From the NCBI GenBank assembly GCA_007116035.1, contig SKJG01000041.1, positions 1 through 42,863 on the forward strand: a stretch of DNA of 42,863 bases, in the 5' to 3' direction. The stretch's first letter is position 1; every line of letters starts with the position of its first letter. The position numbers and the translations under genes are program-made. The notes beneath the pieces are model-generated. The model was not told the origin of the DNA, ran no database searches, and worked only from the letters and a program-made list of their open reading frames with translations. Source of the DNA: Thioalkalivibrio sp. Lineage in GTDB: Bacteria > Pseudomonadota > Gammaproteobacteria > Ectothiorhodospirales > Ectothiorhodospiraceae. This document shows positions 3,450 to 21,743 of the stretch, piece after piece.

Positions 3450-4466
3450 TCATTGCGGAGGCAGGGGATCCTCCACGACTTCCAATACAAGGCTGACGCG
3501 GCGATTCAGGGCCCGGTTGGTCGGAGAGTCGTTGACCGCCCGGGGTCGTGTGTCGGCGTAGCCTGTCACCCGGAGCCGCTGTTGCGGGACTCCGAGCGCG
3601 ATCAGTTCCCGCGCCACCGTGGTGGCCCGGATCGACGACAACTCCCAGTTGGAAGGGAAACGGGCGGTGCTGATCGGGACGTCGTCGGTGTGGCCCTCCA
3701 CGGAAATCTTCAGCCGTTCGTCGCTCAGGGCATCGGACAGCTCCGCGAGCAGGGACCGACCGGCATCGGCCAGGTCGGCGGTGCCGGAGGGAAAGAGGAT
3801 GTCGTTGCCCACTTCGAGGCGCAGCTGGTGCCGATCCAGCAGCAACTCGAGATTCTGTTGCTCTCCGTGTGCAGCGACCAGATCCATGAAGACCGCGAAT
3901 TCGGCCGGGATCGCCGGCGCCAGCGCGGCAGCGATGGACTCCCCATCGATCACCGGCGTGACCTCCTCAACGGCCACCCGAGTCTCGGTCACGGTGTTCG
4001 CGACCGGCACCACTGCCGCTGTCGGGGCGGGTTCGGGATCGATCGCCGCGGTCTGGACGGGCAGCGGGGTCTCCGCTGCGGGCGCAACGGGTGCCGGCTC
4101 CGATGCAGCGACCGGCGCCGCTGGATCCGATGATCCCCCGCCCGACGGTGCCGGGTCGGCAACCGTTTCAGCTGTCCGCGCTGGTTCGGCCGGCGCAGGC
4201 ACTGCCGCAATCGCAGGGGCCTCGCTCGCGCGAAGCGAGCGGAGATCATCCATCTGCAGGAGCGTCGCCCCGAGCAGCGCGGCAAACAGAGTCACCAGGA
4301 TCAGCAGGACGTCCAGGTAACCCACGGTCCAGCCGCCGTCATTCCCCGCCGCTTCGTGCTCCTCGAATTCGACGCGGTCCTTCTGTGTCCATGCCGGCGG
4401 AGGGCTCTGGATTCGCGCCTTCGACGCCCTCCATCCACCCTGGCGCGCGAGTGCCTGGCTGGTCAT
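3450..4466 (-). CDS. MotB/OmpA-like peptidoglycan-binding channel subunit
   Basis: This 338-residue protein has the layout of a MotB-type stator subunit. A cytoplasmic N terminus is followed by one membrane helix carrying an Asp (GYLDVLLILVTLFAALLGA, about residues 49-67). Then comes a Pro/Ala/Glu-rich linker of roughly 100 residues and a C-terminal OmpA-like domain. That domain shows the expected signature (EGHTDDVPI, NWELSSIRA, GYADTRP, NRALNRRVSLVLE), which binds peptidoglycan. Its ATG overlaps the stop of the upstream MotA-like gene (ATGA), so the two are probably translationally coupled and form one complex. In MotB the helix Asp carries the ion through the channel. No flagellar genes are nearby, so this could be an accessory stator, a gliding or secretion energiser, or another MotA/TolQ-type motor. 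The linker is longer and more low-complexity than in classical MotB. Confidence 0.8.
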   Translation of the reverse strand: MTSQALARQGGWRASKARIQSPPPAWTQKDRVEFEEHEAAGNDGGWTVGYLDVLLILVTLFAALLGATLLQMDDLRSLRASEAPAIAAVPAPAEPARTAETVADPAPSGGGSSDPAAPVAASEPAPVAPAAETPLPVQTAAIDPEPAPTAAVVPVANTVTETRVAVEEVTPVIDGESIAAALAPAIPAEFAVFMDLVAAHGEQQNLELLLDRHQLRLEVGNDILFPSGTADLADAGRSLLAELSDALSDERLKISVEGHTDDVPISTARFPSNWELSSIRATTVARELIALGVPQQRLRVTGYADTRPRAVNDSPTNRALNRRVSLVLEVVEDPLPPQ

Positions 4467-18856: not shown

Positions 18857-18970
18857 GGGGTCGGACCAAGGCAACCTATTGAAAAATATCCAGTAACGGG
18901 TTAAATATGGCCCGATTTCGGTCTTAGAGGCCCATTTTTGGCGCCGAAAATGCGGCTTCAAGCACCGTGC
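18857..18970 (+). repeat. Dispersed repeat copy A (starts GGGGTCGGACCAAG)
   Basis: A non-coding block of about 110 bases lies in the 401-bp gap between the 67-residue gene and rlpA (18743-19143). It starts GGGGTCGGACCAAGGCAA, has an AT-rich middle, and contains GGCCCATTTTTGGC 73 bases in, followed by GAAAATGCGGCTTCAAG. Hand alignment without gaps to the reverse complement of 21482-21587 gives about 68 identities in 106 positions, concentrated at both ends. The rest of the gap shows no clear gene, promoter or RNA. Confidence 0.7.
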
Positions 18971-20551: not shown

Positions 20552-21280
20552 TCAATCACCGGTCTCGGCGTGCAGGGCGGAGAAGCTCACAGCAAAGAGC
20601 ACGGCATTGTAAATGCCGTGGATCACCGCCGGCACCGCGATGTTGCCGCTCCGCTCGTATGCGAGGCCGAAAACCAGGCTCGGCAGGACGAGAACGGTCA
20701 CCGTGGTGAGGCGAGCAGCAAGTGGACCGCTGAGCGCCACCAAGTGCAAGGCCGCAAACGTCACGGAGGCGAGGGTGATGGCGGCGCCGGCACCGAATGC
20801 CTGGCGGAGACGGCCTTGTACCACGCCGCGAAACAGGAGCTCCTCACCCGGTCCGATGAGGAGGAACGAAAGCGGTATGAGGAGAAGGAAGATTTCGGGG
20901 TGCTCTACGCCGATCTCCTGAATCCGGTGTTCGCCGACACTGAGACCGAGCAGCGACACCACGAGCAAACCGATGCTGAGTGCGGCGAGTGCGAGCGCCG
21001 AGCCTCCGACCATCCATTGCAGGTCGTTGGCCGTCGGCCACCTCAGCGGCACGCGTATCGTGCCCCGTCGGAGTGCGAGGTAAAGCAGGGCCACCCCGCC
21101 GAAGCTCACGCCCTGGGTGAGCAGGATGGAAAGCACCATCACCAGCGTTGGCCGGAGCTCGATGCCCGCCGCCATTGCCGTGATCACCGCCAGCGGTAGC
21201 ACGACCGCCACCCCCGCCGCGACGAGGATAACCGTCAGCGCTTCGGACAGTGCTCTCGTCTTCGCACCTCGCTCTCTCAT
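20552..21280 (-). CDS. CPBP-family intramembrane metalloprotease
   Basis: This 242-residue integral membrane protein has about seven to eight hydrophobic segments. It carries the CPBP/Abi signature: EELLFRG (EExxxR motif) after a helix ending in FLLIGPG, then FAALHL (FxxxH), and HGIYNA (HxxxN) in the last helix. These residues form the glutamate/histidine active site of Rce1-like proteases. Bacterial members are linked to bacteriocin immunity or membrane-protein processing, but the substrate is unknown. The ATG at 21280 has no strong ribosome-binding site. It is convergent with the SLT lipoprotein gene, and its upstream region begins directly with dispersed repeat copy B. Confidence 0.87.
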   Translation of the reverse strand: MRERGAKTRALSEALTVILVAAGVAVVLPLAVITAMAAGIELRPTLVMVLSILLTQGVSFGGVALLYLALRRGTIRVPLRWPTANDLQWMVGGSALALAALSIGLLVVSLLGLSVGEHRIQEIGVEHPEIFLLLIPLSFLLIGPGEELLFRGVVQGRLRQAFGAGAAITLASVTFAALHLVALSGPLAARLTTVTVLVLPSLVFGLAYERSGNIAVPAVIHGIYNAVLFAVSFSALHAETGD

Positions 21281-21299: not shown

Positions 21300-21420
21300 G
21301 GGGTCGGACTAAGCCAAGTCGTTGTTAAAGATAGGATACTAGGTGTAAAAGCGGGCGAATGGGTGCCTTATCCGGTCCTTTTTGACTCCCAAAACGGCCG
21401 CATGGGCGTAGGGAGCGAGT
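21300..21420 (+). repeat. Dispersed repeat copy B
   Basis: It starts GGGGTCGGACTAAGCCAA, 20 bases upstream of the CPBP start codon. About 77 bases in it has CCTTTTTGACTCCCAAAACGG, matching the CCATTTTTGGC...AAAACGG block of the other copies. It is the most diverged copy and reads toward copy C. It occupies part of the 387-bp gap between the CPBP gene and the tRNA. Confidence 0.55.
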
Positions 21421-21469
21421 TTCCCGGTCAATGTTGTGCGTCGCGAATCGTCACCCGGAATGGGCGTGG

Positions 21470-21587
21470 CAGGGTTTCGACCTTGAGGCACCGTTTTTGC
21501 TGCCAAAAATGGCCCTGTAAGGCCCTATTGGGGTTGTTTTTAGCCTTTATGTTTCAGAAAAACAGTGGTTTGGCTTGGTCCGACCCC
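21470..21587 (-). repeat. Dispersed repeat copy C (inverted relative to A and B)
   Basis: On the minus strand it starts GGGGTCGGACCAAGCCAA at 21587 and reaches GGGCCATTTTTGGCAGC at the same offset as in copy A. With copy B it bounds a 288-bp block with inverted ends (21300-21587) whose terminal 18 bases match at 17 positions (T instead of C after GGGGTCGGAC in copy B). No open frame inside resembles a transposase. Confidence 0.7.
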
Positions 21588-21629: not shown

Positions 21630-21651
21630 AAAAAGGCACCCGTAGGTGCCT
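21630..21651 (-). terminator. Intrinsic terminator of tRNA-Ala
   Basis: Read on the minus strand, a 7-bp perfect stem AGGCACC/GGTGCCT with a 4-base loop is followed by TTTTT. It lies 17 bases past the CCA end of the tRNA. Confidence 0.88.
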
Positions 21652-21667
21652 GATTCTATTAATGCAT

Positions 21668-21743
<76 letters not shown>

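Follow-up and report, generated by a model that had tools for sequence, protein, structure and literature searches.

What is the short, gene-less block that stands between a protein gene and a tRNA gene in this Thioalkalivibrio DNA, and, if mobile, what moves it? The block is 288 bp in length, spans positions 21300 to 21587 of the 42,863-nucleotide stretch that was analysed (the window, here meaning that whole stretch), and carries inverted ends. It is best viewed, with a probability of roughly 0.86, as a MITE-like, i.e., non-autonomous, derivative of an insertion element of approximately 0.93 kb whose gene product is a Y1 HUH tyrosine transposase akin to the RAYTs and TIRYTs. That is, as with MITEs generally, the block is short, lacks a gene, and possesses inverted ends that are common to an autonomous element.

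The block and its neighbourhood

The block consists of two units that face each other across a spacer. The left unit (copy B; 21300 to 21411, plus strand) has a conserved 26-nt end, a phased AT/GC ladder, and an inner dyad, and it matches the unit profile over 21300 to 21405 (E 2.5e-16), its end at 21411 having been placed from alignment with other units. The right unit (copy C; 21476 to 21587, minus strand) matches over 21481 to 21587 (E 7.9e-20), and the central spacer, 21412 to 21475, lies in the gap between these two profile matches. A third copy (copy A; 18857 to 18968, plus strand) is a lone unit without a partner (profile match 18857 to 18965, E 7.9e-22). The outermost stretches of the block, 21300 to 21326 and 21561 to 21587, form an inverted repeat of 27 nt that is 81% complementary, and the 18-mer GGGGTCGGACYAAGCCAA occurs with no mismatches both at 21300 (plus strand) and at 21570 to 21587 (minus strand), and with one mismatch at 18857 (plus strand). 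Allowing up to three mismatches, the window contains three matches to this 18-mer versus 0.10 expected, with none of 100 shuffles reaching three. The likeness of the copies exceeds the 18-mer, every arm being a unit of approximately 112 nt.

That copies B and C face each other and have inverted ends in common, as the first-pass annotation of this DNA had claimed, is borne out by the 27-nt arms and by the exact 18-mer at both ends. So too is the claim that the block lies between a CPBP gene and the terminator of a tRNA gene. On one side the CPBP/Rce1-like gene (20552 to 21280, minus strand; an open reading frame with PF02517 at E 1.3e-18) has its ATG 19 nt from the block. On the other stands a tRNA-Ala(CGC) gene (21668 to 21743, minus strand; ARAGORN, Rfam RF00005), with a terminator-like hairpin, a consensus match only, in the interval between tRNA and element (21634 to 21651, minus strand). 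A sigma-70 consensus scan finds no promoter within the block. The block also is, as had been stated, without a transposase, 288 bp being shorter than is needed for the transposase gene that elsewhere is seen between such ends.

Copies with and without a transposase gene

A search of the whole genome for further copies, as had been proposed along with the annotation, finds them in number. In the organism's own genome (G000; 3.03 Mb in 186 contigs) a 16-nt end with up to two mismatches occurs 61 times, versus eight times for the reversed pattern, and a profile search finds at least 86 units. The profile is sequence-only and was made from 26 units, and its per-genome counts are lower bounds. Across 58 aligned ends the likeness extends approximately 112 nt with few gaps, these being 58 of 73 end matches, with the other 15 dropped by eye as partial, cut, or diverged in body, though some of those may be genuine ends. 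Twenty-four genomes were searched with the profile, and nine of these are of high copy number, with at least 21 to 87 units each: beyond the own genome, at least 87 are found in G018, 71 in G017, 64 in G015, 53 in G020, 43 in G014, 26 in G028, 22 in G003, and 21 in G024, all of these likewise being minima. Eight further genomes, all with a close homologue of the transposase, have at least five to 18 units each, and the remaining seven have zero to two units among the matches listed. A stricter, 18-nt pattern is matched in 22 of 96 genomes and its reversed control in none. Thioalkalivibrio records predominate in the pattern scan, with the 26-nt end found as well in records labelled Desulfuromonadaceae, Desulfobacterales, Nitrospiria, Lysobacteraceae, Chromatiaceae, Oceanospirillales, and others, individual lineage assignments among which may be wrong as most are metagenome bins. 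The exact 26-nt pattern is found in no viral contigs, and the transposase protein has no match in plasmids at E 1e-30 nor in phages at E 1e-20.

The stretches of the own genome that were examined hold 16 inward-facing pairs, of 258 to 351 bp, plus single units, and overall such pairs, of 238 to 351 bp and so too short for the gene, are numerous. Among 230 unit matches in the examined loci, 116 are in inward-facing pairs and 114 are without a partner, some of the latter being cut by contig or locus ends; these partnerless units are not accounted for by a plain two-ended model.

One-strand arrays of units are seen as well. A 7.9-kb contig of the own genome (C11; locus L038, 1 to 7926) has nine plus-strand profile units among toxin-antitoxin genes (YhaV/PrlF, Phd/PIN, and ParE by Pfam, others by eye), plus partial ends, one of them on the minus strand, and several gene ends there are 10 to 35 nt or less from a border. 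Locus L196 has four plus-strand units, at 1347, 2099, 2992, and 4233, and locus L185 has five minus-strand units; one of these two runs is accompanied by a BrnT toxin gene and an Rpn-like gene (by eye), and one is in a deltaproteobacterial-labelled record. Units strung in one orientation among toxin-antitoxin genes might be taken for integron-like cassette boundaries, i.e., for analogues of attC, which is the reading that the C11 array prompts and that the L196 and L185 runs fit. The own genome, however, has no integron integrase above cut-off, C11 itself carries that minus-strand partial end, half of the examined units (the 116 of 230) are in inward-facing pairs, and it is a Y1 gene rather than an integrase that is found between the ends. 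An integron origin accordingly is given only a very small chance.

Other repeats, and other arrangements of this one, were encountered in the course of inspecting these loci. At L040, 562 to 3542, two same-orientation units enclose a segment of approximately 2.9 kb with a photolyase-like gene (by eye); the corresponding site in G014 holds a single unit and lacks the segment, and in G018 approximately 218 bp beyond the unit are repeated, so that the segment looks like one lost or gained by recombination between units. Tandem partial copies of the 24-to-40-nt end are present at L038 (5484 to 5580), L045 (2382 to 2406), and L166 (212 to 252), as if these were duplicates from abortive events. A palindrome, GTAGGAGCGGCC..GGCCGCGA, which looks like a classical GTAG REP, stands at the edge of one element (L040, 6199 to 6230) and has many matches in relatives and none in the window. 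A different repeat, of approximately 180 bp (L043, about 3996 to 4184), is matched dozens of times in G014 and several times in G018.

The transposase flanked by the same ends, which the annotation had suggested looking for, exists. Five pattern loci have the arrangement unit-transposase-unit (L133, L153, L155, L156, and L205; 80 of 97 pattern loci covered), though that of L153 is without an open frame of 150 aa. The L205 protein was then compared with 96 relatives at E 1e-20, matching in 30 genomes, with the best locus per genome examined (L205 being also L285, and L155 also L288, i.e., the same loci met twice). All 14 close Y1/HUH homologues (L285 to L298; 56 to 100% identity with at least 215 of 257 residues covered) sit between inward-facing ends, 13 by profile and L297 by profile plus motif. 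Among gene fragments a unit is present at five of six, the sixth, L302 (64% identity), having different ends, and among distant homologues (28 to 37% identity) a unit is present at none of ten. Ends of other types occur with these: L304, L308, and L312, all distant homologues, show GGGGTCAGA-type ends, and the Y1 genes of L302, L304, and L312 have GGGGTCAGAC or GGGGTCAGAGC ends near them, with dense short-palindrome arrays in L312. The ends at L302, L304, and L312 perhaps represent sister TIR families.

The 14 gene-carrying elements are uniform in build. Twelve are 933 to 941 bp, with L298 at 908 and L297 at 806, and 13 of the 14 have their start codon 115 to 116 nt away from the GGGG border (101 nt in L298). 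Two of the genes, L286 and L291, have internal stops, and forms of 414 to 502 bp with gene remnants (L128, L169, and L184) look like intermediates between the complete and the gene-less forms. Inverted ends along with a size of 240 to 350 bp would equally suit an ordinary MITE, one belonging to a DDE transposase that has terminal inverted repeats. In 14 of 14 cases, however, such ends enclose the gene of a Y1 HUH enzyme, and no target-site duplication, taken as a directly repeated sequence of at least 3 nt, is found at the borders of 57 pairs (57 of 58 pairs used), which leaves a DDE origin with next to no credence.

Gene and units are not always together in the nine high-copy genomes. Complete genes are present in G018, G003, and G015; that of G017 carries an internal stop, and G000 and G024 have fragments. 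At E 1e-20 no gene is found in the assemblies of G014, G020, and G028, which are 67, 77, and 58% complete, respectively. What the own genome has of the close homologue is a 5' fragment of approximately 125 matching codons on contig C148, beside one unit and 47 nt from the contig edge. As all that reads of this closest gene is a fragment close to a contig edge, the window copy probably is no longer mobilised from within its own genome, unless an intact gene has been lost in assembly or the Y1 enzyme of contig C161 serves. That latter gene (C161, 321 to 1881; L060) is intact and distant, encoding 239 aa at 36% identity to the L205 protein, with a unit pair approximately 0.85 kb away that does not flank it. 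The other Y1 genes of the own genome, on C47 and, as a fragment, on C110 (L058 and L059), have no unit there.

Genomic sites and the anatomy of the ends

Is the block a fixed feature of its locus? Of tRNA-Ala loci with at least 485 nt on the relevant side, 24 in all, the block is present in two, those of the own genome and of G018, and no unit is present in 22; three more loci, with just 198, 114, and 18 nt on that side, were left out. The block thus is not fixed at one place in relatives. The G018 copy, at the same place, is 86% identical to that of the window (flanks 88 to 91%), and its border sequences are identical to those at locus L139. Viewed from the CPBP gene, a pair is upstream in G000 and G018, one unit is upstream in G020, and the element is absent in four other genomes, where the upstream DNA differs. 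A second pair (L040, 5907 to 6192) is absent in the near relative G018, which has approximately 100 bp of other DNA between the same flanks, and a third, by a substrate-binding-protein gene (named by eye), is common to G000, G018, and G014, with five other genomes showing none. Joining the flanks of 93 pairs (those with less than 60 nt of flank excluded) and comparing these with the collected loci, some of which overlap, gives one spanning match, and that sole site retains approximately 15 to 18 nt resembling the right end. As far as the stretches show, far-side DNA differs in the compared relatives, and for that reason no base-exact empty site emerges. The search for empty sites that had been advised yielded presence and absence between species but no clean, base-exact empty site in the relatives examined, and what bears on movement itself is this presence/absence along with the one remnant site. 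With the further copies, the same ends around a Y1 transposase, and the lack of fixation at one place, reading the block as a non-autonomous mobile element, which the annotation had offered as interpretation, is supported.

Just outside of the elements the base next to GGGG is C in 65%, and the following base C in 60%, of 114 borders, the flanks being 63% GC. Within the unit, information is concentrated in positions 1 to 26 (38.5 bits) and 65 to 110 (39.9 bits), with the middle, 27 to 64, having only 12.2 bits. The border motif is GGGGTCGG, with A or T at position 7 in 1% of 223 units, and an inner dyad symmetry is centred at position 87.5 (CTT/AAG and TTT/AAA).

Solved Y1 complexes read single-stranded hairpins, and REPs of the GTAG type, as well as the REPINs built from these, are short, GTAG-tagged palindromes with a stem that are mobilised by RAYTs. 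The block might then be viewed as a GTAG-type REPIN, that is, as two inverted REP hairpins that fold together and are moved by a classical RAYT. Its RAYT-related enzyme, its inverted doublets, the few gene copies relative to many gene-less doublets, and a consensus dyad all are consistent with that view, as are the convincing stems that single-sequence DNA folds give in some of the 58 units. The dyad, however, lacks covariation. Among 152 non-redundant units (from 173 nearly full ones of 275 matches) variable pairs are not above shuffles, with per-pair z from -1.6 to 2.1, and in the 26-sequence alignment 66.3% of cells pair versus 65.5% in shuffles; that sliding the dyad partner lowers pairing in this latter alignment is due to the consensus dyad. 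A long hairpin, arm against arm, fares no better, with arms within an element 0.351 identical at variable columns versus 0.362 between elements, and with 1700 of 2000 permutations as high as the observed within-element value. As moreover the ends are GGGG rather than GTAG and the unit is approximately 112 nt rather than 20 to 40, a GTAG-type REPIN is a quite improbable description of the block.

What the unit displays instead is a ladder, that is, an alternation of AT-rich and GC-rich stretches with a best-fitting period of 10.6 to 11.3 bp depending on the set. Over 152 units its phase-coherent amplitude reaches 5.69, the highest of 1000 null trials being 1.13, and, free of alignment, it is 5.80 versus 1.33 in 500 trials (137 of the 152 units), with just 0.30 immediately outside of units (149 stretches). 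Ends from beyond Thioalkalivibrio, other phyla included, which were picked solely on their first 26 nt, have the ladder as well, with an amplitude of 4.58 versus 1.72 in 1000 trials (43 ends, 40 of 41 loci). All of these nulls overstate independence as units share descent, an effect that the other-lineage set reduces without abolishing. The AT-rich columns examined take A and T interchangeably. It is the phasing that is kept and not base identity. The ladder covers approximately positions 24 to 108, or about 85 bp, and stops near 108, with 107 to 153 essentially flat. The best centre of AT symmetry is position 71 (r 0.79) rather than the dyad near 87 (r 0.71). A helical phasing of the lengths of the elements was considered too and is weak and not robust: of 2000 nulls, 15 reach the observed value with 52 pairs, and once related pairs are removed more strictly 222 do so with 39 pairs and 747 do so with 27.

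Composition phased with the helix raises the question of whether a host protein is being served. BIME-2 REPs have been reported as sites for gyrase or a nucleoid protein. The pairs here might likewise be immobile host protein-binding sites, for gyrase or a nucleoid protein, that selection preserves and that recombination alone moves. Consistent with this are the nearly fixed unit length (195 of 222 matches within 1 nt net across positions 19 to 107), the retention of AT/GC phasing while base identity varies, the pairs at positions shared by G000, G018, and G014, and the gyrase motif of E. coli, which as described in PMC6379681 is symmetric, 130 bp in length, with two 47-bp wings, and likewise phased in GC content, at a period of 10.75 bp. 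That motif is attractive as a match on the outer side of the unit, where the amplitude is 0.169, but it is not continued inward, where the amplitude is 0.023 (null maximum 0.019; 134 of 152 units), and as the periodic stretch is approximately 85 bp and stops near 108 the 130-bp, two-winged form is not matched. Five of the 24 genomes searched by profile, furthermore, have no unit among the matches listed, 22 of the 24 well-covered tRNA-Ala loci have none either, and the window's block has diverged from that of G018 as much as its flanks have. Host sites that are immobile seem on the whole unlikely.

Returning to a mobile element with a Y1 transposase, its ends could be recognised as double-stranded DNA that is bent or wrapped, with a specific border of 26 nt followed by some 80 bp in which, for long stretches, nothing but the AT/GC class is kept, phased at approximately 11 bp. 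Ends of that kind could also serve as sites for gyrase or a nucleoid protein and so link the element to supercoiling or replication. This is offered tentatively, and is possible rather than probable. The open-licence PMC literature holds no joint mention of phased A-tracts, a transposase, and a terminal inverted repeat, and the string GGGGTCGGACC occurs there only in papers which by title are on other subjects.

The transposase and its nearest published relatives

The annotation's idea that the mobiliser might be a REP-associated RAYT, of Y1 type, holds in part, the protein being Y1 and RAYT-related but TIR-associated and below the NCBI cut-off for RAYTs. In an alignment of 14 rows (13 distinct proteins, as L155 is L288) and 268 columns, the HUH residues N59, H60, and H62 along with Y120 are invariant, as are N124 and M125, these in a tyrosine motif that reads YIDLNM (YIDMNM in L156). 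Four proteins, all of those tested, score 36 to 42 bits with Y1_Tnp (PF01797; Pfam cut-off 23) and 66.5 to 72.6 bits with the NCBIfam RAYT model NF047646 (cut-off 80; L133 queried without its first codon). A search of the PDB by sequence alone has no relevant match. The predicted structure, however, with a mean pLDDT of 75.5 and a pTM of 0.78, is matched best by E. coli TnpA-REP 4ER8 (Foldseek E 1.5e-4), which is top in both fold comparisons, with the IS608 and ISDra2 transposases coming next in the Foldseek list.

A complete element, found in relatives and perhaps once present here, would supply this transposase in trans. The enzyme would recognise the unit of approximately 112 nt at both termini and, by the HUH/tyrosine single-strand cleavage chemistry that is known for the superfamily, would cleave single strands at the GGGG border, moving or copying the element without duplicating the target. 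The ladder may allow the end to bend or wrap on a protein, whether a transposase multimer or a host nucleoid protein, and for that reason the end would be read largely as double-stranded DNA rather than as a REP-type hairpin. The element in other words is ordinary in kind but unusual in how its ends are built. An anonymous intergenic block is thereby linked to a named transposase group, one for which no biochemical study was found in the open-licence PMC literature, and a concrete, testable anatomy of its ends is offered. Composition phased with the helix but free of base identity, retained at the ends of a transposon that is presumed to act on single strands, would bear on how RAYT-like enzymes locate their ends, as well as on why REP-like repeats can coincide with gyrase sites.

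How does this family compare with known systems? With GTAG REPs and REPINs it has in common gene-less inverted doublets alongside a RAYT-like gene, and differs in having neither a GTAG end nor a short, covarying hairpin. With 4ER8, the best structural match, 152 residues superimpose (Z 11.6, rmsd 3.4), though that protein has 165 residues versus 257 here and is just 12 to 15% identical. The closest published kind instead is the TIRYT, i.e., the TIR-associated tyrosine transposase. TIRtrons and TIRYTs, as described in 2013 (PMC3733652), are RAYT-like genes flanked by long TIRs that have no relation to REPs; certain TIR families form dimers, and a GGGGWSAS motif is common to some TIRs, not all. 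The core of that description, a RAYT-related Y1 gene between long terminal inverted repeats, applies here, as do repeats that are single, dimeric, or grouped (at least 86 units in the own genome, with its 16 pairs plus singles) and a GGGG-headed motif such as is found in many published TIRs. The motif here is one base off GGGGWSAS (seven of eight letters fit), and the approximately 112-nt unit with its phased ladder may be a further difference. Quentin et al. (2018; PMC6006769) hold that subclass 2.1 of TnpAY1 probably corresponds to the TIRYTs, and by the account given there the present protein resembles that subclass in length (257 aa here versus a median of 238), in its NH[VI]H motif, in a C-terminal extension, and in no REP having been found beside the gene. 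It differs in having YID[LM]NM rather than the Y---NP of class 2 and, perhaps, in its C-terminal domain, which in subclass 2.1 is an HTH (Bac_DnaA_C, HTH_23, or HTH_28; PMC6006769), while here four proteins have no Pfam HTH match up to E 1, with helices predicted at 157 to 220. Given these deviations, of one motif base, of NM for NP, and possibly of the C-terminal domain, the family is described as TIRYT-like rather than as a proven member of subclass 2.1, its nearest kin nevertheless being the TIRYTs and not the GTAG-REP type.
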